From Actinomycetota bacterium (GTDB lineage Bacteria; Actinomycetota; Thermoleophilia; Solirubrobacterales; 70-9): a stretch of 64,000 nt of DNA. Positions within the stretch are counted from its first letter, which is position 1; the number at the start of each line of letters is the position of its first letter. The DNA is taken from the NCBI GenBank assembly GCA_018268415.1, contig JAFDWO010000100.1, forward strand, positions 1 through 64,000, written 5' to 3'. A program made the position numbers and the translations under genes. A model generated the notes under the pieces. The model was not told the DNA's origin, did no database searches, and was given only the letters and a program-made list of their open reading frames with translations. Below, piece by piece: positions 45,049 through 56,124 of the stretch.

Positions 45049-45660
45049 ATGGACTGGAGCATCCTTCACACCCTCAACAACTTCCTCTACCAGCACGACG
45101 CGGTGGAGGACCCGTTGCTGTTCTACGTCAACATCTCCGAGGCGCTCTTCGTCGCGACCCTCGTCGTCGTCTTCCTCTTCGCCAACGGCGCGCGCCGGCG
45201 CGCCTGGCGGCGCGCCACGGTGGCCGCGGGGCTCAGCGCCGGGCTCGCGCTCGCGATCGGGAAGGTGATCTCCGAACTGGTCGACCGCGCCCGCCCCTTC
45301 GTCACCGACCCGCACGGCGTCCACCTCTTCAGCGGCCACGCCGCCGACCCCGGCTTTCCCAGCGACCACGCCACCGGGGCGTTCGCGGTCGCGATGGCGA
45401 TCTGGCTGCGCAACCGCCGCTGGGGCACGGTCGCCTTGATCGCCGCCGCGGTGCTGTCGGTCGGGCGGGTCGCGATCGGCGTCCACTACCCGAGCGACGT
45501 GCTCGCCGGCGCGGCGCTGGGCTGTGCCGCCGCCCTCGTCCTCTTCATCCGCCCGCTGCGCGAGCTGGTCGACCGGCTCTCCGACCTGCTCGGCGGCGTC
45601 CTCGAACGCGGACTGCGCCGGCTCCGGCCGCTGCGTCCGGCTCAGCCACCGAGCCGGTAG
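45049..45660 (+). CDS. PAP2 family phosphatase (undecaprenyl-diphosphatase-like)
   Basis: 203 residues from ATG 45049. Five to six membrane helices. The three PAP2 motifs are present: KVISELVDRARPF (K-x6-RP), PSDHATGAF (PSGH-type) and GRVAIGVHYPSDVLAG (SR-x5-H-x3-D type, with G for S). This arrangement fits BcrC-like C55-PP phosphatases that recycle the cell-wall lipid carrier. Its 3' end overlaps the convergent PQQ gene by 19 nt. Confidence 0.88.
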   Translation: MDWSILHTLNNFLYQHDAVEDPLLFYVNISEALFVATLVVVFLFANGARRRAWRRATVAAGLSAGLALAIGKVISELVDRARPFVTDPHGVHLFSGHAADPGFPSDHATGAFAVAMAIWLRNRRWGTVALIAAAVLSVGRVAIGVHYPSDVLAGAALGCAAALVLFIRPLRELVDRLSDLLGGVLERGLRRLRPLRPAQPPSR

Positions 45661-48617
45661 GCGACCAGCGAGGGCACCTGCCCTTCGGCTACGGCGATCC
45701 CAGCGGCAAGGACGAGGCTGTCGCCGGAGGCGATCACTCCCGAGTTCGCCCCGGCGGGCAGCGATGCCGACCAGACTTCGCCGCCGGTGCCCGCGTCGAG
45801 CCCGTGCAGGGTCCCTTCGAAGGTGCTGAAGAAGACCATGTCGTTGACCGCCACCGGCGCGCCGAACGCCGGCCCTTCGTAGGTCTGGCTCCACTTCTGC
45901 TTGCCGGTGGCGAGGTCGAGGGCGACCATTTCGCCGCTCATCTCTTCGCCTTCGCCGATCACTTCGCCGTTTTCGACCGTCAGCGGGTGGTTCACCACCG
46001 GCACGAACAGGGTCGTCTTCGACGCGGCCATCGGCGCGATCACCCCGCCGAGAAGTCCCGGATAGACCGTCGCCTGCTTCGGCAGCTTCGAGAATTCGCC
46101 ACGCATCGCCAGGAGGCCGTCTTCGTCGTGACCGTTGTGCTTGCCGACCGGCACCTTCCAGACCGGCTTGCCGGTCTTCGCGTCGACCGCGGCGACGATG
46201 CCGGACTTGCCGGCGCCGATCGCGAGCTCGCGGCCGCCCACGTCGGCGAGGATCGGCGGATCCTGGAAGTCCCAGTCGTAGACGTCGTGGGGCGTGGCCT
46301 GGAAGAACCACTCGAGCTTCCCGGTCTTCGCGTTCAGCTTGACCAGCGAGTCGGTGTAGTGGTTCGGGCCGGGACGGCTCTTGCCCCAGGGCAGGCCTTC
46401 GGCGCCGGGGAACGGCACCGGGTTGCCGGTCCCGATGTACATCCCGCCTTCTTCGTCGAAGGACGGCGCGTACCAGAGGCCGCCGCCCGCGTTGATCGTC
46501 TTGTGATTCTTGGACCAGAGGCCCTTCGGGGCCGTGTCGAAGCTCCACCTTTTCGCGCCGGTCTTCGTATCGAGCGCCCAGAGGACGCCGGCGATGCCGC
46601 CGTTGTAGGCGCTGGTGACGTCGGTCGGCACGGTCGAGACGTAGACCAGCCCGTCGTGGACGCCCGGCGACATGTCGATTGCTTCCTTCGGCACCGTGAT
46701 CAGTTCGGTCGACCAGACTTCTTCGCCGGTTTCCGCGTCGAGCGCGAACGCGTTCGTCGCCGTCGCCCCGAAGACCATGCCTTCGGCGACGGCGACGCCG
46801 TTCGGGCCCTGGTCGGGGGATTCCATCTTCGTTTCCCAGAGCAGTTCGCCCGATTCCAGGTCGACCGCCTGGACGTTCGATTCCAGATCCTGCATGTAGA
46901 CGACGCCGTCGACGACCACCGGCGAGGCCGAGTAGGCACCGTAGGTGCTCTGCGCTTCGCTCGGCAGCGTCCAGGCGAGCTTCAGCCCGGCTGCCGAGGA
47001 GCGGTCGATCGGCCCACCGACGAAGCGCGAGTTGGCGAGGTCGATGCCGGGATAGCCCACCGCGGCCGTGGCACCCCCGGGGTCGCCGCCTTCGTTGCCC
47101 GCGCCCGCGGCGGTCGTCTTCGCTTCGGCGGCGCCCGCTGACGGTGCGGTCGAGGAGGACGACGAGCCGCCGCCGCAGCCCGCCAGCAGGGCGACGACGA
47201 GGATCGTCAGGGCCGCCGCCGCGGCGCCTCGCTTCGCCCTGGTCAGGGCCGGAACGAGCGGCGCCAGCACCCGGTTGGCGAGCAGGCCGAGGCTGCCGAG
47301 GTTGGCGAAGCCGGGGCCCTGACCGAGGCCGGCGAGGCCGGGGATGTGGAGACGCGGCTCCAGGCCCTCGAGCGCCAGGGAGCGGTCGAAGCGCAGCTCG
47401 GTCCCGGGCGGGCGGTCCCAGATCGGCCCGACCCGCTCCTCGAGGCCGGCGCGCACCGGCTCGGCGAAGAGCCCGCGCAACTGGGCGAGGAGGTCGAAGC
47501 CGGTGCAGTTGACGACGTACTCGTGGTGGGCGATCGCCGGCCCGGCGGCGGTGTCCAGCTCCAGCTCGACCTCTTCCCCACCCCGCGCCGCGTTGACCTG
47601 GACCGCCCGGCCGAGCTCGAAGGCGCAGCGCTGCTCCCCCGCGAGGCGCGCGATCACTCCCGCGTCGAAGACCCCCCGATCGCAGTGCTTGACGAAGTCC
47701 CTGCGGGTCTCCAGGTCGAGGTGCTCCCACCCGACGTCGTCGGGATCGGCGAAGACGCGGTTCTCGAGGAAGCTCTCGCCGCGGGAGAGCGGCAGCATCG
47801 GCGTGTAGACGGTGATCTTCGCCTGCGGGCGCATCGCCCGCAGGAAGACCAGGGCCGAGAGCGCGCTCTCGCCGCCGCCCACGATCGCCACGTCGACCTC
47901 GCGGTCGGCGGGCAGGCGAGCGAACTCGCCGCGGCGCGAGTCACAATGCAGGACGCGCGGCTCGGCCGCCGGGTCGTGCGGGAAGGCGCGGTGGACGCCC
48001 GGGCCGGTCAGCAGCAGGGCGCGGCCGCGCAGGCGCCGCGTCTCCCCCCGCGGCTTGTCATCCATAAGCGCAGGAGCCTCGGCGGCGCCCGCCTGGTCCT
48101 CCACCTCGATCACCCATTGCTCGCGAGACGGGTCGAGCTCGATCGCCACGACGCGCCCGCTCAGCACGCTCACCCCCTCCGTCGCCCGCTCCAGCACCCA
48201 ACCGAGGTAGGTCCCGTACTCGCGGTGGAGGATCGGCGGCGCGCCCGAGTTGACCCAAGGCGCGTACTCACCGCGTTCGATCGAGTGGCGCTGCCAGCTC
48301 AGCGGCAGGAGCGCGGCGTCGAGCTCGTCCCCGACCTCGGGGAACTGCCGGGCGCTGCGGTAAGGGAAGCCGACGTCCTTGATCGGCGGCACCGCCAGCG
48401 GCTCCTCGCCCGAGGTCATCCCGTTCAGCCCCAGCCAGGACGCGGCGGGCTCGGCTTTCTCGACGATCGTGACCGTCAGCTCGGCGAGCCCGAGCCCGTT
48501 GATCGCGTCGACCTTGGCGGCGATCGCCGCCGCCTTCGCCCCCGCGCCGACGATCACGAGGTCCGCGACCGGAGCCTCGTCCTCTCCCTGCCTGCCCCCC
48601 ACACCGATGCCGCTCAT
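45642..48617 (-). CDS. MbtG-like N-hydroxylase fused to PQQ beta-propeller
   Basis: 991 codons in one frame. Residues 1-455 match mycobactin MbtG-type lysine N6-monooxygenase along their length: FAD motif VIVGAGAKAAAIAAK, ASWLGLNGMTSGEEPL, KDVGFPYRSA, NADPH motif VAIVGGGESALSAL, LSRGESFLENRVFADP, LGQGPGFANLGSLGLLANRVL. At 456-481 comes a lipoprotein-like signal (RAKRGAAAAALTILVVALLAGC), then residues 515-991 form a quinoprotein propeller (GTGNPVPF, PNHYTDSLVKLNAKTGKLEWFFQATPHDVYDWD, as in PQQ alcohol dehydrogenases). Either a true fusion with an internal membrane span or a lost stop with internal initiation (GTG at 47270). Start overlaps the P450 stop (ATGA). Confidence 0.85.
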   Translation of the reverse strand: MSGIGVGGRQGEDEAPVADLVIVGAGAKAAAIAAKVDAINGLGLAELTVTIVEKAEPAASWLGLNGMTSGEEPLAVPPIKDVGFPYRSARQFPEVGDELDAALLPLSWQRHSIERGEYAPWVNSGAPPILHREYGTYLGWVLERATEGVSVLSGRVVAIELDPSREQWVIEVEDQAGAAEAPALMDDKPRGETRRLRGRALLLTGPGVHRAFPHDPAAEPRVLHCDSRRGEFARLPADREVDVAIVGGGESALSALVFLRAMRPQAKITVYTPMLPLSRGESFLENRVFADPDDVGWEHLDLETRRDFVKHCDRGVFDAGVIARLAGEQRCAFELGRAVQVNAARGGEEVELELDTAAGPAIAHHEYVVNCTGFDLLAQLRGLFAEPVRAGLEERVGPIWDRPPGTELRFDRSLALEGLEPRLHIPGLAGLGQGPGFANLGSLGLLANRVLAPLVPALTRAKRGAAAAALTILVVALLAGCGGGSSSSSTAPSAGAAEAKTTAAGAGNEGGDPGGATAAVGYPGIDLANSRFVGGPIDRSSAAGLKLAWTLPSEAQSTYGAYSASPVVVDGVVYMQDLESNVQAVDLESGELLWETKMESPDQGPNGVAVAEGMVFGATATNAFALDAETGEEVWSTELITVPKEAIDMSPGVHDGLVYVSTVPTDVTSAYNGGIAGVLWALDTKTGAKRWSFDTAPKGLWSKNHKTINAGGGLWYAPSFDEEGGMYIGTGNPVPFPGAEGLPWGKSRPGPNHYTDSLVKLNAKTGKLEWFFQATPHDVYDWDFQDPPILADVGGRELAIGAGKSGIVAAVDAKTGKPVWKVPVGKHNGHDEDGLLAMRGEFSKLPKQATVYPGLLGGVIAPMAASKTTLFVPVVNHPLTVENGEVIGEGEEMSGEMVALDLATGKQKWSQTYEGPAFGAPVAVNDMVFFSTFEGTLHGLDAGTGGEVWSASLPAGANSGVIASGDSLVLAAGIAVAEGQVPSLVAYRLGG

Positions 48618-49897
48618 CCCACCATCACCAACCCCTTCTCTCCCGGACTGAAGGAGATCGCTGCTTTGCTGACGCGCTCATCACGGCCGTCCACCGGTCG
48701 CAGGTCGATCGCCGCCAGAACCTCGCGCAGGACCCGCTTCATCTCGAGTTCGGCGTAGCTCGCGGCGAGGCAACGGCGCACGCCGCCACCGAAGGGGATC
48801 CAGGTGTAGGTCCCCGCGGGACGTTCGAGGAAGCGCTCGGGGCGGAAGCGCAACGGCTCGGGATAATGGCGCGGGTCCCGGTGCAGGAGGTGGATGCAGG
48901 GGGCGACGACGGTCCCGGTCGGGAGATCGCGACCGGCGATCCGCATCGGCTCGCGCAGGCGGCGGACGACGACGGGCACCGGCGGGCGGAGCCGCAGCGT
49001 CTCCTTGACGACCGCGTCGAGGTAGGCGTCGTCGGTGCCACCCAAGATCTCCCGACGGGCGCGCGCGAGCGTCTCGGGGTTGCGCAGCAGGCGCTCGAAG
49101 GTCCAGGCGAGTGAGGTCGAGGTCGGGCCGTCGGTGAGCAGGGTGAGGAGTTCGTCGCGCAGCTCCCCCTCGCCGAGCGGCGAGCCGTCCTCGCGGCGGG
49201 CGGCGATCAGCATCGAGACGATGTCGGGGCGCGCGGGCACCGGCTCGGCGCGGCGGCGGCGCACCTCGGCCAGCGCCGCGTCCTCGACCGGGCGCATCGC
49301 TCCCCGGTAGCCGGCGCTGCGGCGCACCCATTCGGGCCCCAGAATCGTCAGCGCGGCGAGGCTGCTCGGGCGATTGAGGTACTCGGTCAGCTCGGTGAGG
49401 CGGCGGCGCAGGTCGTCGAGGCGAGGATCGTCGGCGCCCGGGCCGAAGACGGCCCGCATCACCACCTCCAGGGTGATCCGCTGCATCCGCGGCCAGAGCG
49501 CGAACGGCTCGCCCTCCGGCCAGGCGGCGATCTCGCGGCGGGTCACCTCGCCGATCGTCTCGGCGTCGTTGGCGATCGCCTCGCCGTGGAAGGCAGGCAG
49601 GACGACGCGGCGGCGGCGCATGTGCTCGGGTTCTTCGGAGAGCATCACCGAGCGCGGGCCGAGGACCGGGCCGAGCAGCGGGTTGGCGAGCGCGACGCCG
49701 ACCTTGTCGCCGGCGGTGAAGACGGCTTTGACGTCGTCCTCGTCGGCGAGCACGACCCAGTCGCCCCAGTGGCGGATCCGCAGGGTGAAGGCATCGCCGT
49801 AACGCTCGCGACAGCGCTCCAGCCAGGGCAACGAGCGCCGCGCCCAACCGAGCGCCTGCACGGCCCGCGGCAGCCGCGGCCCCGGCGGCAGGCTCAT
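48614..49897 (-). CDS. Cytochrome P450
   Basis: 427-residue soluble P450. Heme loop FGGGVRRCLA with C376 as axial ligand, K-helix ETLR (299-302) and PERF meander. The oxygen-activation helix reads TDGPTSTS (255-262) in place of the usual AGxDTT, keeping an acid and Ser/Thr but with Pro after Gly. No membrane anchor, so electrons come from ferredoxin partners not encoded here. Start overlaps the chorismate-mutase stop by 4 nt. Likely tailoring oxidase of the cluster. Confidence 0.94.
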   Translation of the reverse strand: MSLPPGPRLPRAVQALGWARRSLPWLERCRERYGDAFTLRIRHWGDWVVLADEDDVKAVFTAGDKVGVALANPLLGPVLGPRSVMLSEEPEHMRRRRVVLPAFHGEAIANDAETIGEVTRREIAAWPEGEPFALWPRMQRITLEVVMRAVFGPGADDPRLDDLRRRLTELTEYLNRPSSLAALTILGPEWVRRSAGYRGAMRPVEDAALAEVRRRRAEPVPARPDIVSMLIAARREDGSPLGEGELRDELLTLLTDGPTSTSLAWTFERLLRNPETLARARREILGGTDDAYLDAVVKETLRLRPPVPVVVRRLREPMRIAGRDLPTGTVVAPCIHLLHRDPRHYPEPLRFRPERFLERPAGTYTWIPFGGGVRRCLAASYAELEMKRVLREVLAAIDLRPVDGRDERVSKAAISFSPGEKGLVMVG

Positions 49898-50343
49898 CGC
49901 GCTTCCTCCGCCGGGGGTTCCTGTCCTTTGTCACCCACAGGGTTACCAAGGACAGAGAGCCCCTCCTCGTCCGCGGCGAGCCGCTCCATCAGCTCGTCCT
50001 CGGCACGGCAGGTGGCGTCGATCATCAGGTCGAGGAAGGCCGCGGTGAAGTCGCCGGGGAGGTCGAGCTCGGCGCCGTGCCGGAGGTAACGGGCGCGGAC
50101 GATCTCGACCCGGCCTGGCTGCATCATCGCGATCTCGTTCTCCGCCTTGTGGACGGCGACTTCGCGGCAGATCCGGAACCGCTCGCCAAGCAGGTCGACG
50201 AGCTGCGCGTCGATCTCGTCGAGGCGGGCGCGGAACGGGGCGAGGCCGATGGCGACCGCCTCCTCCGCCGGGGTCAGCGCCTGGCCGTCCGGCTCCTCGC
50301 GCTCCACGACAAGCTCGTCGGCGCGCTCCTCAGCGGCGCTCAT
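49894..50343 (-). CDS. Chorismate mutase type II (AroQ/PapB-like)
   Basis: 149 residues from ATG 50343. All-helical AroQ fold: LAPFRARLDEIDAQLVDLLGERFRICREVAVHKAENEIAMMQPGRVEIVRARYLRHGAELDLPGDFTAAFLDLMIDATCRAEDEL, with the R near the start of helix 1, R in ERFRICREVAVHK and the K-x-x-x-x-M/E region. Its place beside a PabAB fits a 4-amino-4-deoxychorismate mutase (PapB role), but isochorismate lyase or plain mutase activity is possible. Overlaps both neighbours by 4 nt. Confidence 0.85.
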   Translation of the reverse strand: MSAAEERADELVVEREEPDGQALTPAEEAVAIGLAPFRARLDEIDAQLVDLLGERFRICREVAVHKAENEIAMMQPGRVEIVRARYLRHGAELDLPGDFTAAFLDLMIDATCRAEDELMERLAADEEGLSVLGNPVGDKGQEPPAEEAR

Positions 50344-51302
50344 ACCGGGTCCTCCCCGAGGAGCCCGGCGGCGAAGGCGTGGCTGCACGGCGCCAATGCG
50401 TCGAGGGCGTAGCCGCCCTCCTGGACGACGCAGACCGGCAGCTCGGTGGCGGCCAGCAGGCGCCCGATGCCGGCGAAGACCTCGGGGCCGAAGTGCCAGC
50501 TGCCGTGCGGGTCGCCGTCGACGGTGTCGTAACCGAGCGAGACGACCAGTGCGGCGGAGTCGGCGGCGAGCTCGGCGAGCGAGGCTTCGACCTCGCCCAG
50601 GTAGGCGACCGGGTCCGGCGCGGCGGCGAAGGCGTGGGCGCGTTCACGCGACACCCGCGGCAACTCGGTGCCGGCGGCGACGTTGGTGACCGGCGAGGCG
50701 TGCAGGGAGTGGAGGGTCACGTCGCCGCCCATCCGCTCGACCAGCTCCGAGGTCCCGTTCGGATAGTGGAGGTCGAGGTCGAGGACGCCAACCGGAGCGA
50801 GCCCGCCTTCGCGCAACGCCTGCACGGCCGCCGCGGCGTTGTTGAGGTAGCAGTAGCCGCCGATGAAGTCCGGGCCGGCGTGGTGGCCGGGCGGGCGGCA
50901 GACTGCGTAGGCGTAACGGTCGCCGGCGACCAGGTGGGCGGCGGCCGAGAGCGCCGTGCGGACCGCCTCGCGGGCCGCGGCGACGAGCGCGGCGTTGACC
51001 GGGATGTCGGGCTCGAGACCGGGCGGCGCCAGCTCCGGGACCACGGTCGCCTCCTCCCCCGCGGCGGCGAGCGCGGCCAGGTGGGCAGGGCCGTGGAGAG
51101 CGGCGAGTGCACGCTCGACCGCCTCGTCGCCGGCCGTCGCGTCGACCGGGCGCACGCCGAAGTGACGGCGCAGCCCGAGCCGCAGGGCGGCGAGCCGCGC
51201 GTCGGAGTCATGCCCCTCCAGCCGCACGTCCCCTTCGCGGATCCAGACCGAGCCGGTGTCGAGGCCGTTGGTCCGCTGCTCGACCATCACCAGCTCGCTC
51301 AT
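50340..51302 (-). CDS. HDAC-like / acetylpolyamine amidohydrolase-like enzyme
   Basis: 320 residues from ATG 51302 (51365 possible). Arginase-deacetylase fold: RPPGHHAGPDFIGGYCYLNNAAAAVQAL (tandem His), VLDLDLHYPNGT (Zn ligands D and H; canonical HHGNGT is HYPNGT here), SLGYDTVDGDP (third Zn ligand D) and VVQEGGYALD. Zinc-dependent removal of acetyl groups from amines such as polyamines is the family reaction. Together with the adjoining GNAT it suggests protect-and-release acetylation of an amine intermediate. Overlaps the chorismate mutase start (ATGA). Confidence 0.88.
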   Translation of the reverse strand: MSELVMVEQRTNGLDTGSVWIREGDVRLEGHDSDARLAALRLGLRRHFGVRPVDATAGDEAVERALAALHGPAHLAALAAAGEEATVVPELAPPGLEPDIPVNAALVAAAREAVRTALSAAAHLVAGDRYAYAVCRPPGHHAGPDFIGGYCYLNNAAAAVQALREGGLAPVGVLDLDLHYPNGTSELVERMGGDVTLHSLHASPVTNVAAGTELPRVSRERAHAFAAAPDPVAYLGEVEASLAELAADSAALVVSLGYDTVDGDPHGSWHFGPEVFAGIGRLLAATELPVCVVQEGGYALDALAPCSHAFAAGLLGEDPV

Positions 51303-51414
51303 GACGAGGCCCAAGCCGCCATCGTCCCCCGGCCGGGGGCGCCGCGCCGGCCGCAGGAGCCGCATAGGCCGGGCGGGCCAGAACGGCGGGAGGGGTCGGC
51401 AAAGGCAGGCAGGC

Positions 51415-51921
51415 TCATGGCACCGCCCGCCGCATCCGCGGGCCGAGCCGCTCGAAGCCGTTGGCGAGGTAAAAGCGTTCCGTGGCGCGTAGGGCCGGGA
51501 AGCTCTCCCGCGGTAGACCGACCTCGACCCGTCCCGCGCCCTCGGCCGCCGCCGCCGCGGCCAGCGCCTCGACCAGGGCCGCGCCGACGCCCCGATCGCG
51601 CCACTCGCGCCGCGTCCACAGCACCTCGATCGTCAGCAGCCGTCCGGCGACCTGGATCGCCCGCGCCCAACTGGCGCTCAGCACCCCGGCGAGATCATCG
51701 CCCGCGGCGGCAACCAGGACGATGCCCAGGGACGGATCCCCGATGTGGGCGCGAGCCTCTGACTCGATCGCGGCGCGCGCCGGCGGCGTCCCGCCCAGCT
51801 CGGCCAGGAGCGCCGCAACCCCGGCGGCGACAGGAGGGGCGTCGTCGGCACGCGCCGGCCGAACCTCCCAGCCGACCGCCCCCGGCCCCACGGCCGGGCT
51901 CTGGGTCGCCACCCGGGTCAT
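51415..51921 (-). CDS. GNAT acetyltransferase of the biosynthetic operon
   Basis: 168 residues from ATG 51921, overlapping the PabAB stop (ATGA), which decides the start. GNAT core: VRPARADDAPPV, VAAAGDDLAGVLSASWARAIQVAGRLLTIEVLWTRREWRDRGVGAALVEALAAAAAAEGAGRVEVGLP (R-x-x-G-V-G acetyl-CoA loop), ATERFYLANGFERLG. Small-molecule type. With a neighbouring N-hydroxylase it could form a hydroxamate; with the deacetylase it could be a protecting step. Confidence 0.88.
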   Translation of the reverse strand: MTRVATQSPAVGPGAVGWEVRPARADDAPPVAAGVAALLAELGGTPPARAAIESEARAHIGDPSLGIVLVAAAGDDLAGVLSASWARAIQVAGRLLTIEVLWTRREWRDRGVGAALVEALAAAAAAEGAGRVEVGLPRESFPALRATERFYLANGFERLGPRMRRAVP

Positions 51922-54254
51922 ACGGCCGCACCGCCCCCTGCCGGCGACTGCTCGACGCCGCTCCCCGCCGCCGCGCGGTCCCGCCCCGGCTCCAGGTCCA
52001 CGCTCCACGCCTCCTCGTCGGCGCGGCCGGTGACGGTGCGCGCGATCGCCGCCATCGGGGCGCGCGCCTTCAGCAGGATCTCGTCGAACTCCTCGACCGG
52101 ATCCGACTGCATGACGATCGCGCCGCCGGCGCCGATCGTGGTGCGTCCGGGGCGGATCACGATCGTGCGGATCACGATCGAGAGGTCGACCGCGCCGTCG
52201 ACGCCGAAATAGCCAATCGCCCCCGAGTAGACGCCGCGCGCCTCGTCCTCGAGCTCGTCGATGATCTCCATCGTGCGCTCCTTCGGGGCGCCGGTCATCG
52301 AGCCGCCGGGGAAGCAGTTGCGCACGCACTCGACCGGCGAGCGGCCCGCTTCCAGTTGCCCGGTCACGGTGGAGACGACCTGGTGCACGGTCGCGTAGGG
52401 CTCGACCACCATCAGGTCGGGGACGCGGACCGAGTCGACCTCGCTGACCCGGCCGAGGTCGTTGCGCAGCAGGTCGACGATCATCAGGTGCTCGGCGCGG
52501 GTCTTTTCGTCGGCGGCGAGCTCGGCACGGCGGGCGGCGTCCTCGGCCGGGTCAGCGGCGCGCGAGATCGTCCCCTTGATCGGCCGCGCCTGCACGGCGC
52601 CGTCGCGACCCACCGAAAGGAAGCGCTCTGGCGAGGAGCTCACGATCGCGGTGTCGCCGAAGCGCAGGAAGGCAGCGAAGGGGGCCGGGTTGGAGCGGCG
52701 CAGGCGGCGGTAGAGCGCGAACGGGTCGGGGCTCGCGTCGGTCGAGATCTGGTCGGTCAGGCAGACCTCATACGACTCCCCCGCCGCGAGTTCAGCCTGC
52801 GAGCGTTCGATGTCGGCGAGGTACTGCGCCCGCCCGCGCCCGCATCGGAAGCTGACGTGGCCGCCCGGCTCCGCGGGCGGGTCGAGCGGCCGCGGCGTCG
52901 GTGGATCACAGATCGCGACCGCCGCGAGCCGCGTCGCCTCCTCCAGCCACGCCACCGCCTCCGTCCGCTCATGTTGATGGGCCGAAAACTCCGGACTGGC
53001 TTGAGTTTTCGGCCCATCAACGTCGTCGTGTGACGGATCACAGACGAGGGCGAAGAGGTGGGTGCGTTCGCGGGCGTGGTCGACGGCGACCACGCGGTTG
53101 GCGAGCATCAGGGCGGCGTCGGGAAGGTCGGAGCTGTGGACGTTGGTCGCGCCGCAATCGGCCTTCAGCTCGTAGCCGAGATAACCCACGTAGCCGCCAA
53201 TCAGCCCGCGGTCGACGCCGATCGGCGCCTCGGTGCGGAGGTCGCGCAGCTCACCGTCGAGCAGGTCGAAGATCGAGCCGTGCCGCCGCTCCTCGCCGGC
53301 GGGCGTGCGGACCGTCGTCGTCGCGGCGTCGACGTCGTAGGAGAGATGGCGCTCGCCCGGTCCGGCGCTCGTCCCCATGTAAGAGCACTGGGCGAGCCAG
53401 GTCGGCGCGTCTGCCGAGTCGAGCCAGAAGGACGTGTCGGCGTCGGCCAAGAGCCGTTCGTAGAGGTGCTCGGTCGGCGCCGCCCCCTCCAACGTCCGCG
53501 ACAGCACCTCCCAGCCGCGCTCCGGCGCCGCGGCTCTCCGTCCCGACTCACTTCCGCGCGCCACCTCGGTTGGTGGGCCGAAAACTCCAGACTGGCTTGA
53601 GTTTTCGGCCCGTCGACAACCGGGGCCCTGGGAAAGGCGCGCGGAAGTGGGGACGGATTGCGTCGTCGAGCTCGAGTGGCGCTCGGCGAGCCGGAAGAAG
53701 TTCTTGGCGATGCGGTCGCCGAACTCGGTGGCGATCGACTCCGGGTGGAACTGGACGCCCCAGATCGGCCGCGAGTCGTGCTCGACGCCCATCACGACAC
53801 CGTCGTCGGCCCAGGCGACGACGTGGCCTTCGGGACCGACCGGGCCGGTGATCGCCAGCGAGTGGTACCGGACCACGGAGAAGTCCTGCGGGACGTCGGC
53901 AAAGATCCCGGTGCCTCGGTGGCGCACGTGGCTGAGTCGGCCGTGCATCGGCTGCGGGGCGCCGGCGACGTCGCCGTCGAGCAGGTTGCCGATCCCCTGG
54001 TGACCGAGGCAGATCCCCAGCACCGGCACCTCGCCGTAACGGAGGATGTCCCGGCAGACGCCGAAGTCGTGCCAGCGTTCCGGGCGACCAGGGCCCGGCG
54101 AGAGGACGAAGGCGTCGAACTTCGACCGCGAGAGCACGCGCCAGCTGACCGCGTCGTTGTTGACGACCACCGGCTCTTCGCCCGAGGCCGCCGCCAGCAG
54201 GTGGAAGACGTTGTAGGTGTAGGAGTCGTGGTTGTCGACGAGCAGGGTGCGCAT
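51918..54254 (-). CDS. pabAB: Fused aminodeoxychorismate synthase PabA-PabB
   Basis: 778 residues from ATG 54254, one base overlapping the synthetase stop (TGATG). PabA domain (1-195): LLVDNHDSYTYN, catalytic C82 in GICLGHQG, H170 and E172 in VQFHPES. PabB domain: N-part GLIGGYVGYLGYELK, then the chorismate core (about 440-750) with RPIKGT near residue 560, the Lys that marks ADC synthase rather than anthranilate synthase (Ala), and GAPKERTMEIIDELE. Makes 4-amino-4-deoxychorismate from chorismate and glutamine. Two 49-nt palindromes lie inside the gene (codons about 213-229 and 412-428) without breaking the frame. Confidence 0.94.
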   Translation of the reverse strand: MRTLLVDNHDSYTYNVFHLLAAASGEEPVVVNNDAVSWRVLSRSKFDAFVLSPGPGRPERWHDFGVCRDILRYGEVPVLGICLGHQGIGNLLDGDVAGAPQPMHGRLSHVRHRGTGIFADVPQDFSVVRYHSLAITGPVGPEGHVVAWADDGVVMGVEHDSRPIWGVQFHPESIATEFGDRIAKNFFRLAERHSSSTTQSVPTSARLSQGPGCRRAENSSQSGVFGPPTEVARGSESGRRAAAPERGWEVLSRTLEGAAPTEHLYERLLADADTSFWLDSADAPTWLAQCSYMGTSAGPGERHLSYDVDAATTTVRTPAGEERRHGSIFDLLDGELRDLRTEAPIGVDRGLIGGYVGYLGYELKADCGATNVHSSDLPDAALMLANRVVAVDHARERTHLFALVCDPSHDDVDGPKTQASPEFSAHQHERTEAVAWLEEATRLAAVAICDPPTPRPLDPPAEPGGHVSFRCGRGRAQYLADIERSQAELAAGESYEVCLTDQISTDASPDPFALYRRLRRSNPAPFAAFLRFGDTAIVSSSPERFLSVGRDGAVQARPIKGTISRAADPAEDAARRAELAADEKTRAEHLMIVDLLRNDLGRVSEVDSVRVPDLMVVEPYATVHQVVSTVTGQLEAGRSPVECVRNCFPGGSMTGAPKERTMEIIDELEDEARGVYSGAIGYFGVDGAVDLSIVIRTIVIRPGRTTIGAGGAIVMQSDPVEEFDEILLKARAPMAAIARTVTGRADEEAWSVDLEPGRDRAAAGSGVEQSPAGGGAAV
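52973..53021. repeat. 49-nt palindrome, family A copy 4, inside pabAB
   Basis: Outer 18 bp of each arm complementary. Read on the gene strand as VDGPKTQ-ASPEF-SAHQ, the same frame as copy 3. It sits in the N-terminal part of the PabB domain at a likely surface loop between ALVCDPSHD and HERTEAVAW. Confidence 0.88.
53569..53617. repeat. 49-nt palindrome, family A copy 5, inside pabAB
   Basis: Arms GTTGGTGGGCCGAAAACTC... and ...TTCGGCCCGTCGAC. It lies in the linker between the PabA and PabB domains and is read in another frame (RRAENSSQSGVFGPP), where a flexible linker would tolerate it. Confidence 0.85.
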
Positions 54255-56017
54255 CACGCCGCCTCCAGTCCCAGGCCGCGGACGCCCTCGTCGAGCACCG
54301 CGGCGACGATCGCGTCGACCCGCGGCGAGCGCTCCGCGGCGGCGTACCAGCGGGAGAAGTGCGAGAGGTAACGGGCCAGCGGCAACGGATCGAGGGCAAT
54401 AACGCTGCGCAGGTGTCGGCGGAAGAGCTCCGACTGGACCACGGCGAAGCGATAGTCCGGGTCGGCGGCGCCCGCGCCGCCGACCGCTCCCCCGCCCGCG
54501 CCGGCCCCGAACGTGCCCGCATCCGCTCCACCGCCACCGGCGGTCGCACCGGCCAGAACCCGGCCGCGTGCCGCCTGGGCGCGGACGATGTCCCAGCCGA
54601 GGCTGCGCTCCGGCTCGAACAGGAGCTCCGGCTCGAACTCGACCCGCTTCGCGGTCGGCTGCAACAGGAACCAGGCGAGCACCAGCCGCGAGGCGATCCG
54701 GTCGGGCTGCGGGTGGGCCGCCCGCACCGCCGCCAACTCCGGGTCGGCGAGCAGCCGCTCCTCCGCCCACTCGACCAGGTCGTCGATCAGGAGCGCCCCC
54801 GCCTTCGACGAGCTGACGGCCTCGCCGGTGCGCGCGACCATCCCGTGGAAGACGTCGTGGGTCGGCGGCCCGCCCCGCCCGTCGGCGTTGGTGACCGGGT
54901 TGGGATGGCCGTTCGAGCGGGCCGTCGCGAGGACATCAAGAAGCCGGCGGCGGCAGGTGACGTGGGCCACCCACTCGGTGCCGCAGACCTGCAGCGAGGT
55001 GAAGTCGTCGAGCTCCGGCGCCACCGACCAGTAGGCGAGCGCCCGCATGTGCTGGGTCGGTAGCCCGTCGGCGCGGACCAGCGGCATCTCTTCCAGCTCC
55101 TCGCGGTCGGTCGGGTAGATGACCATCCCGTCCTCGCGGTGGTGCAACATCCCCTCGCGCAGGCCGAGGTTGGTCAGCTCGGCGACCTCGGGCAGGAAGT
55201 CGGACTCGAAGATCACCTTGTCGAAGGGGACGCCGAGACGGGCGAGGGTCTTGCGCTGGCCGGAGATCACCCAGGCGCGCGTCTTCGACCACAGTTCGAG
55301 CGCCCGCTGATCGCCGGCGAGGACGCGCATCATCAGCTCGTCGGCCTTGTCGTCGTAGAGCGCGGACTCGCGGGCCACCGAGTCCTCGGCGCCGTCGCCG
55401 TCCAGACCGTCGCGCCCTGCCTTGACGTACTCGGCATAACAGAGGCCGACGAAGTGGTCGGACTTCTCGCCGCTGCGGTTGTCGGGGCCGAGCTCGTCGT
55501 CGGCGCGGCCCGACGCGACCACGCCCGCCATCGCCTCCCCCATGCTGCGGCCGACATCACAGATCAGGCTGCGGCTCTCCACCTTGGCTCCCCCGCTGCG
55601 CAGCCCGGCGGCGATCGCGTTGCCGAGCGCCAGGTTGCGGAGGTGGCCGACGTGGAGCGCCTTGGTCGTGTTGGCGCCCCAAAAGTAGACGGCATAACGC
55701 TCGCCGGCGGCGAGATCACGGTTGGCATCAGGATCGGCCCCCGCCTCCAGCGCCTCGCCGCGCGCCTCGATCCAGTCGTCGGCGAGGCGGACGTCGATGC
55801 CGTTCGGGCGCTCGACGACCTCCTCGACGGCCGGGTCGGCGCCGATCCGCTCGAGCGCCGCGCGGGCGGCGGCGTCCTCGGACCAACCGCGGACCCGGGG
55901 CACCAGCATCAGGTCACGCCCGTCCTCCGGGCCATACGGCGAGCGGGCCGCCCAGGGCCCGGCAGCCGCTTCCCCGGCCGCCACTCCGTCGATGTTGTCG
56001 AAAAGGTTCCCCGCCAT
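54254..56017 (-). CDS. Arginyl-tRNA synthetase-like protein
   Basis: 587 residues from ATG 56017; a start at 56056 would lie inside the tRNA. Class I synthetase of ArgRS type: N-terminal additional domain, HVGH (122-125) in ANTTKALHVGHLRNLALGNAI, CDVGRSMGEAMAG, KMSK-like VSSSKAG (401-407) followed by ALLIDDLVEW, and a DALR-like C-terminus (LFRRHLRSVIALDPLPLARYLSHFSRWYAAAE). A Gly/Ala-rich insertion (490-519) is unusual. Position at the head of a biosynthetic operon suggests a dedicated paralogue: a resistance copy or a supplier of aminoacyl-tRNA. Amino-acid specificity is not proven. Confidence 0.82.
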   Translation of the reverse strand: MAGNLFDNIDGVAAGEAAAGPWAARSPYGPEDGRDLMLVPRVRGWSEDAAARAALERIGADPAVEEVVERPNGIDVRLADDWIEARGEALEAGADPDANRDLAAGERYAVYFWGANTTKALHVGHLRNLALGNAIAAGLRSGGAKVESRSLICDVGRSMGEAMAGVVASGRADDELGPDNRSGEKSDHFVGLCYAEYVKAGRDGLDGDGAEDSVARESALYDDKADELMMRVLAGDQRALELWSKTRAWVISGQRKTLARLGVPFDKVIFESDFLPEVAELTNLGLREGMLHHREDGMVIYPTDREELEEMPLVRADGLPTQHMRALAYWSVAPELDDFTSLQVCGTEWVAHVTCRRRLLDVLATARSNGHPNPVTNADGRGGPPTHDVFHGMVARTGEAVSSSKAGALLIDDLVEWAEERLLADPELAAVRAAHPQPDRIASRLVLAWFLLQPTAKRVEFEPELLFEPERSLGWDIVRAQAARGRVLAGATAGGGGADAGTFGAGAGGGAVGGAGAADPDYRFAVVQSELFRRHLRSVIALDPLPLARYLSHFSRWYAAAERSPRVDAIVAAVLDEGVRGLGLEAA

Positions 56018-56051
56018 AGCCCGTCCCCCCGGACGATCCCGATTTGTGGAA

Positions 56052-56124
56052 TGCACCAGCCGGGGCTCGAACCCGGATCACCGGCTTACAAGTCCGGTCC
56101 TTTAACCGATTAAGGCACTGGTGC
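56052..56124 (-). tRNA. tRNA-Thr (anticodon TGT), atypical
   Basis: 73 nt. Acceptor GCACCAG/CTGGTGC with discriminator A; D stem CCTT/AAGG with GG in the loop; anticodon stem CCGGA/GCCGG with one A-G mismatch, loop CTTGTAA (TGT); 4-nt variable loop; T arm CCGGG/CCCGG with TTCGAGC. The D arm (C10-G25, AATCGGTTA) differs from the usual bacterial AGCTCAGTTGG type. It ends 34 nt before the ArgRS-like start codon on the same strand, so the two may share a transcript. Confidence 0.82.

Follow-up and report, generated by a model that had tools for sequence, protein, structure and literature searches.

Why a biosynthetic operon should be headed by a tRNA gene is the question raised by the DNA analysed here, the first 64,000 nucleotides of contig JAFDWO010000100.1 (assembly GCA_018268415.1) of a soil actinobacterium of the order Solirubrobacterales, hereafter called the window. 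On its minus strand a tRNA is followed by seven open reading frames (ORFs), the first of which encodes an ArgRS-derived synthetase-like protein, RSL. The main finding is that RSL and this extra tRNA are a matched pair whose anticodon changes from clade to clade, a relation that the initial annotation did not state. The account tentatively preferred is a chorismate-derived small-molecule pathway in which RSL would load or couple a non-standard amino acid by way of its private tRNA, for chemistry off the ribosome. Throughout, G000 is the window genome, g1 the genus of the window (the UGU clade) and g38 the UAA clade of another family.

Linkage of a tRNA gene to an ArgRS-derived protein

Scanning named genomes yielded 31 RSL loci, in Solirubrobacterales bins, in Conexibacter strains and in seven more distant genomes, which were classed as 18 operon-type loci (L155-L170, L176 and L179; at least 49% identity), six Conexibacter-type loci (L171-L175 and L178) and seven distant ones. 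Among sampled genomes, RSL relatives occurred in 23 of 201 from the order, in 21 of 399 from the class under a stricter limit and in 9/12 from the window genus; the order sample and the 31-locus scan share many genomes and their counts are not independent. The distant RSLs, from Planctomycetaceae, Alkalicaulis and others, have 25-34% identity and some may be plain ArgRS. Among viral contigs the pattern matched 47 stretches, none of them a relative, and plasmid records gave four matches, every one below 30% identity.

The tRNA lies within the cluster in 16/18 operon-type loci, directly upstream of RSL on the same strand in 13 and elsewhere in the cluster in three, namely near the P450 gene in L163 and L179 and between P450 and RSL in L164, which has a second copy beyond the N-hydroxylase gene. 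In L162 there is no tRNA on the 7.5-kb contig and an operon-type match sits on another contig (G200:C160), while L165, a second RSL copy, has none on its contig and the first copy, L179, has one. With 49 tRNA matches in the 4.74 Mb of the window genome, chance adjacency of a tRNA and RSL is negligible, and the operon-type loci hold a private tRNA linked to its own synthetase, as do PylRS-type pairs.

That the tRNA is incidental, being a promoter, a processing site or an integration scar, with RSL acting independently of tRNA like MshC, is hardly to be expected. Mobile elements do often use tRNA genes as integration sites, as described in PMC11195616, and MshC, a CysRS-like ligase, is among the weaker fold matches of RSL. 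However, the tRNA is found in nearly all operon clusters and moves along beside RSL or P450, in either orientation, with a body that is conserved and covaries, a tRNA is present at 6/6 Conexibacter-type loci too, and the RSL model aligns with whole ArgRS chains.

The operon tRNAs are mostly one family, the body being conserved while the anticodon changes. The anticodon is UGU in g1, UAA in g38 and AGU in G136 and L164, and the window tRNA shares 88% identity with that of G142 (UAA, other family), 79% with that of G136 (AGU) and 76% with that of L172 (UCU). Within its own genome it is 59% identical to tRNA-Thr(UGU) and at best 67% to another tRNA (a tRNA-Lys), in a comparison with 46 others that left out tRNA-Glu and tRNA-Leu of the window; its label as a tRNA-Thr derives solely from the anticodon. 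The operon tRNAs with UAA lack the long variable arm that leucine tRNAs have. In an alignment of 15 sequences (14 operon-type and L172) 98.7% of cells were paired and 10 of 21 pairs had changed on both sides, which none of 500 shuffles equalled; the shuffles ignore relatedness, and slid controls were also low. U33, A37 and intact arms are retained. All nine RSL-containing g1 genomes have, besides the operon tRNA, another UGU tRNA of the housekeeping type, all three g1 genomes without RSL have one too, and a match with the long-arm spacing of tRNA-Leu(UAA) was obtained in five of six g38 genomes and not seen in G152 (pattern matches, none folded). The housekeeping isoacceptors having been retained, the operon tRNA is an addition and not a replacement. 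The window genome also has a 96-nt tRNA with an extra D-loop hairpin (L083, G000:C40:51643-51738), for which ARAGORN gave an ambiguous anticodon.

RSL matches ArgRS models alone, and below their cut-offs (for the window protein 79.7 against 261.65 for TIGR00456 and 19.5 against 23.3 for PF00750), PF00750 being matched by 17/17 family members with E values up to 0.01 and at best 2.5e-9. The class I core with HxGH and the ArgRS fold are present, and the predicted structure (mean pLDDT 74.5, several low loops) gave whole-length ArgRS matches with a TM score of about 0.65. In the alignment to yeast ArgRS (1bs2), N153 and HxGH are retained in the operon-type RSLs, whereas E148 is replaced by Y or Q, Y347 by Q335 and D351 by A or S in all 17 rows. 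These three residues presumably hold the arginine side chain in the yeast enzyme; a paper on the pocket residues was looked for and not found. RSL thus appears to be derived from ArgRS and no longer built to bind arginine, and the operon-type tRNA partners seen are without C35. In the g31 RSLs an acid is kept at the first pocket position and the other positions are not kept, and in the g16 RSLs the acid is not kept either. G142 and G152 have in addition a second RSL-like protein (L034:10341-11573 and L035:10261-11541), in which HAGY replaces HxGH and a KMSK-like loop is missing, probably a catalytically dead synthetase homologue.

The ThrRS paralogue of the obafluorin cluster is reportedly an immunity gene, and by that analogy, drawn in the initial annotation, RSL would be a self-immunity paralogue of ArgRS. 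Synthetase copies in antibiotic clusters can confer resistance, and sbzA was first sought on that idea. Nevertheless the analogy is disfavoured and this role very improbable: the arginine-binding residues are replaced, RSL scores far under the argS cut-off, and it is paired with a tRNA of its own without C35, whereas a resistance copy must still serve the housekeeping tRNA-Arg.

Cluster content and a dehydratase-like gene

The initial annotation had described one operon of seven minus-strand genes, mostly overlapping and headed by a tRNA, and both this layout and its coordinates hold (Table 1). Neighbouring ORFs overlap by 1 or 4 nt at five of six junctions, and the sole gap, between GNAT and HDAC, is 112 nt from ATG 51302, or 49 nt should ATG 51365 start HDAC. 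One start was corrected: the GTG listed for RSL at 56056 runs into the tRNA, and the conserved start is the ATG 34 nt downstream of the tRNA.

Table 1. Genes of the window operon and the g1 relative of the dehydratase-like gene.
Feature	Position	Strand	Basis or remark
Dedicated operon tRNA, anticodon UGU	56052..56124	-	ARAGORN; Rfam RF00005, 65 bits; covarying cloverleaf
RSL, ArgRS-derived synthetase-like protein, 587 aa; HVGH and SSSK; arginine-pocket residues replaced	54254..56017	-	Pfam/NCBIfam, alignment, predicted structure
PabAB fusion, aminodeoxychorismate synthase (PapA-like), 778 aa, PIKGT	51918..54254	-	Pfam; TIGR00553
GNAT N-acetyltransferase, 168 aa, single domain, small-amine acetyltransferase type	51415..51921	-	Pfam; fold and sequence neighbours
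HDAC-like amidohydrolase (PF00850), 320 aa	50340..51302	-	Pfam
AroQ-type chorismate mutase (CM) homologue, 149 aa; PapB-like role proposed	49894..50343	-	Pfam
Cytochrome P450, 427 aa	48614..49897	-	Pfam
FAD N-hydroxylase-like domain (Lys/Orn monooxygenase type), N-terminal part of 991-aa fusion	47259..48617	-	Boundary by eye
Lipobox/transmembrane-like segment and PQQ-type beta-propeller, C-terminal part of fusion	45642..47258	-	Separate gene in L043, L044
Dehydratase-like relative in g1, unlinked to operon	G000:C67:108483-109052 (L263:8415-9080); others L265, L267-L269		Profile search

The operon is conserved in two families of the Solirubrobacterales, and the order RSL-PabAB-GNAT-(HDAC)-CM is fixed where contigs permit. 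Since the same gene order recurs in other genera, the neighbourhood in the window is not due to chance. PabAB adjoins RSL in 17/18 operon-type loci, the exception being the second RSL copy L165, while GNAT is present in 12 and CM in 11 of the 18; neighbour genes were called with a crude GC-frame script which misses some genes. Six of the seven loci without CM stop at or just past PabAB or within HDAC, and L165 does not. The doubt that these genes might be the sole housekeeping copies has a divided answer: a separate ArgRS ORF (549 aa) and a separate tRNA-Thr(UGU) exist in the window genome besides the operon copies, whereas PabAB is the only match above the PabB cut-off in the assembly (94% complete). 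G080, G146 and G136 have no second such match either, and G044, G089 and G142 have one elsewhere.

The start of the pathway resembles that of the Pap pathways, as first annotated, with a PabAB that beats the TIGR00553 (PabB) cut-off (356.6 against 328.4 bits), has the PIKGT lysine and a glutaminase domain, and is accompanied by the AroQ mutase; the set of PapA, PapB and PapC is not complete. In g38 and G136 the gene next after CM encodes about 200 aa, beginning with LGPxGT(C). Its relatives in g1, away from the operon, were found in eight of nine RSL-containing genomes (seven near full length, one partial in G080), the profile giving no match in G108, which is 87% complete. No match was obtained in the three g1 genomes without RSL or in the three RSL-containing genomes without the PabAB operon that were tested (G042, G160 and G113). 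This dehydratase-like gene may take the empty slot of PapC, and that it follows RSL together with PabAB is the best reason to think that the CM product would be a prephenate analogue and the pathway complete without PapC. A second cluster around the g1 gene is not claimed, as no neighbour was common to all eight loci: a methyltransferase was found in 4/8, a cupin in 4/8 and a small membrane protein in 7/8.

Families for oxidative and acetyl tailoring (P450, N-hydroxylase, GNAT and HDAC-like) were recognised in the operon as previously described. In the window, G080 and G128 the N-hydroxylase and the PQQ-like propeller (45642-48617) are joined into a single ORF by a hydrophobic, lipobox-like segment; in G089 and G044 they are two genes. 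The contig that also holds the operon-type locus L170 (L048:1193-10112) has two tRNA(UAA) genes and two P450 genes, with four related lipoprotein-like ORFs between or beside them, two of which match PPIC-type peptidyl-prolyl isomerase.

Codon usage and the Conexibacter-type loci

The codon cognate to the operon tRNA is among the rarest. Counted from the rarest of 61, ACA ranks 3, 2, 1 and 4 in G000, G080, G089 and G044, and UUA ranks 1 of 61 in G142 and ACU 6 of 59 in G136 (17 kb only); the ranks are from part of each genome, and the rarity argument was framed after the data had been seen. ACA makes up 0.65-1.73% of Thr codons in four RSL-containing UGU genomes against 4-12% in three g38 genomes, where its use would be costly. 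An effect of the operon tRNA on ACA avoidance was not shown, ACA being equally rare in g1 genomes with RSL (84/6087, 17/2096, 7/1075 and 23/1333 of Thr codons) and without it (0/235, 0/211 and 1/217, small samples). A rare cognate codon is compatible with a quarantined adaptor as well as with a slot for recoding.

Natural recoding would mean that the dedicated tRNA, charged by the ArgRS-derived synthetase, inserts a chorismate-derived amino acid on the ribosome at ACA, UUA or ACU depending on the clade, with wholesale, ambiguous or conditional decoding. The tRNA keeps U33, A37, intact arms and covariation, the cognate codon is rare in each operon clade sampled and the anticodon tracks that rarity, and another user of the aminoacyl-tRNA is not obvious. 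Recoding is nevertheless improbable. Housekeeping-type tRNAs of the same anticodon persist (9/9 RSL-containing UGU genomes and, as pattern matches, 5/6 UAA genomes), ACA is equally rare in congeners without RSL, though these samples are small, and AGA is still Arg-like in Conexibacter-type loci. A34 is a poor choice for decoding, and the AGU form has it. A gene rich in the cognate codon, which could be the target, was sought in the available stretches and none was convincing. In g1, stretches without RSL included, Thr was found at 15% of 11 ACA positions that could be aligned to other groups, too few to use, against 47% for ACC.

In the Conexibacter-type loci the PabAB operon is absent and a tRNA lies close to the RSL match, at most about 250 nt away, in 6/6, with the anticodon UCU in five and CCU in L174 (opposite strand). 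The tRNA(UCU) of L171, from the named strain Conexibacter arvalis DSM 23288, is 69% identical to the window tRNA and 76% to tRNA-Asp of G000, so that RSL is partnered by a different tRNA in most of these loci. In all five Conexibacter-type genomes searched, the sole UCU pattern match is the tRNA linked to RSL. AGA aligns there most often with Arg, at 31% of 65 positions against 49% of 448 for CGC (counts in which three loci were entered twice: L171/L053, L175/L055 and L178/L033), and in a second comparison at 56% of 1578 pairs against 68-77% for CGN codons. Full reassignment of AGA was rejected, Arg being the commonest residue aligned, and as the tRNA is the sole UCU match it probably carries Arg. 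AGA is not rare in these loci, and the rare-codon rule therefore does not extend to them. RSL with a tRNA nearby is thus used alongside differing sets of biosynthetic genes, and the Conexibacter pair may still handle arginine.

RSL and tRNA(UCU) are followed by methyltransferase genes, two in L173 and one confirmed in L171, L172 and L175, and an ATP-grasp protein is encoded in L171, L172 and L173, L171 also giving a weak L-amino-acid-ligase signal. The gene content suggests a second undescribed-looking pathway. Among the seven distant loci a tRNA signal near RSL was seen only at L177, and it is weak (L180-L185 were searched by ARAGORN alone). In this Planctomycetaceae bin a tRNA-like gene (L177:9339-9710, minus strand) is seemingly interrupted in its D-loop by some 0.3 kb, as judged by eye, and its loop CTTCAAA would give a UCA anticodon reading UGA, with an Rfam score of only 28.9 bits. 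A 60-nt tRNA-like match (L030:7030-7089, minus strand; 35.5 bits) with a CCU-like loop and an odd 5' half lies 2 kb downstream of the RSL of G113, where ARAGORN gave no tRNA.

Use of the aminoacyl-tRNA and known systems

Off-ribosome use is made the most likely by the biosynthetic setting, by an anticodon that changes on a kept body and by the retained isoacceptors, and from the gene content we infer the catalytic steps, the amino acid, the acceptor and the product as follows. PabAB would form 4-amino-4-deoxychorismate, the AroQ homologue would rearrange it, and the prephenate-dehydratase-like partner, encoded at G000:C67 in the window genome and next to CM in g38 and G136, would decarboxylate or dehydrate the rearranged product, from which a general aminotransferase would give an aromatic or cyclohexadienyl amino acid. 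GNAT and the HDAC-like enzyme could acetylate and deacetylate this amino acid, P450 and the N-hydroxylase could oxidise it, and the membrane-anchored quinoprotein-like domain would work outside. RSL would esterify the non-standard amino acid to the operon tRNA, or could itself also take the aminoacyl group off the tRNA as SbzA does, and the ester would be consumed in off-ribosome chemistry. The anticodon, free to change, would have settled on rare codons, limiting mis-incorporation.

Several observations weigh against this pathway. The KMSK-like loop is SSSK or TSSK in nine g1 rows only and the lysine is gone in the other eight of 17, which would speak against a fully active synthetase in those rows; yeast ArgRS, aligned alongside, is likewise without a plain KMSK. 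The initial annotation noted that PapC and a transaminase are missing, and Pfam found neither PapC nor an aminotransferase in the operon, although the PapC slot may be filled as described above. That dehydratase-like gene, whose other putative identity is a BacA-like decarboxylase, resembles prephenate dehydratase weakly (hhalign probability 40%, E 3e-4, the N-terminal 40 columns), though more than unrelated control profiles did (E values of 0.26 and 0.89), and Pfam, NCBIfam and PDB sequence searches returned no useful match for it. No aminoacyl-tRNA user of the FemX, CDPS or PEARL type was among the Pfam matches of the window operon. GNAT resembles a single-domain small-amine acetyltransferase. 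HDAC is missing from three of 12 clusters holding GNAT (L166, L169 and L170, CM being present), and the N-hydroxylase and PQQ genes were not seen in every cluster, so that the product may differ between loci, the majority of which are metagenome bins. GNAT was considered as the aminoacyl-tRNA user and is unsupported in this role, its fold and sequence neighbours being mostly acetyl-CoA small-amine enzymes; the altemicidin enzyme SbzI, among its fold matches, uses a carrier-protein-bound acyl group and not tRNA.

Alternatively RSL could be a transferase that takes, or makes, a standard aminoacyl-tRNA and couples the residue to an arylamine or hydroxylamine derived from aminodeoxychorismate, which we consider unlikely but worth weighing. 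SbzA, a class I IleRS-like enzyme with slightly changed HIGH and KMSKS motifs, shifts Ile from Ile-tRNA to altemicidin, and AcmF is a class II parallel. Loss of the KMSK lysine in eight of the 17 RSL rows would suit a transferase no longer activating its amino acid, and so would a Conexibacter-type tRNA that probably carries Arg. However, SbzA is reported to act with cellular Ile-tRNA, so that a dedicated extra tRNA would be superfluous, and the operon-type RSLs, being without the arginine-pocket residues, suggest no standard amino acid.

The private-tRNA pathway therefore has to be set beside several known systems. In pyrrolysine-type systems PylRS, its own tRNA-Pyl and the genes for amino-acid biosynthesis travel together, and the operon likewise bundles a synthetase-like protein, its own tRNA and biosynthesis genes. 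It differs from PylRS in its class I ArgRS origin, its variable anticodon, the kept isoacceptors and in that no stop codon is read by the operon-type forms. With standard ArgRS, RSL shares the fold and HxGH, but the ligands of the Arg side chain are lost, the KMSK-like loop is altered or without lysine and the operon-type tRNA does not have C35. Like RSL, SbzA (SB-203208) and AcmF (ascamycin) are synthetase-derived enzymes in small-molecule clusters, and SbzA has kept HIGH/KMSKS-like motifs; yet it is reported to use Ile on cellular tRNA-Ile (PMC6331615 and PMC12945691), whereas RSL has a cluster tRNA gene and an altered pocket. The PapABC pathways of chloramphenicol and dnacin (DinV/E/F) share the start of 4-amino-4-deoxychorismate synthase and AroQ mutase, and for dnacin an aminotransferase gene away from the cluster is described (PMC7570522). 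Unlike these, the operon has no PapC and a dehydratase-like partner in its place, and no non-ribosomal peptide synthetase was found in it by Pfam. The FemX-like aminoacyl-tRNA consumers VlmA, DhpH, PacB and Orf11 have two GNAT domains (PMC12945691), whereas that of the operon is single-domain and looks like an acetyl-CoA enzyme.

Natural-product clusters with synthetase-like enzymes are already known, but one that also brings its own tRNA together with a re-specialised synthetase was not found described in the searches made. A literature search, with most subscription papers and preprints outside its scope, gave no cluster with its own tRNA and a re-specialised ArgRS, and the accessible part of a 2026 review of the field (PMC12945691) contains none of the terms 'tRNA gene', 'dedicated' or 'ArgRS'. 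If the chemistry is on the ribosome, the operon would provide a new encoded amino acid, and if it is off the ribosome, the tRNA would be a private carrier whose anticodon is parked on rare codons. Either way RSL and its tRNA would be a naturally evolved synthetase-tRNA pair, useful for code-expansion engineering. For these Solirubrobacterales the analysis suggests a private tRNA kept as a metabolic handle rather than for ordinary protein synthesis.

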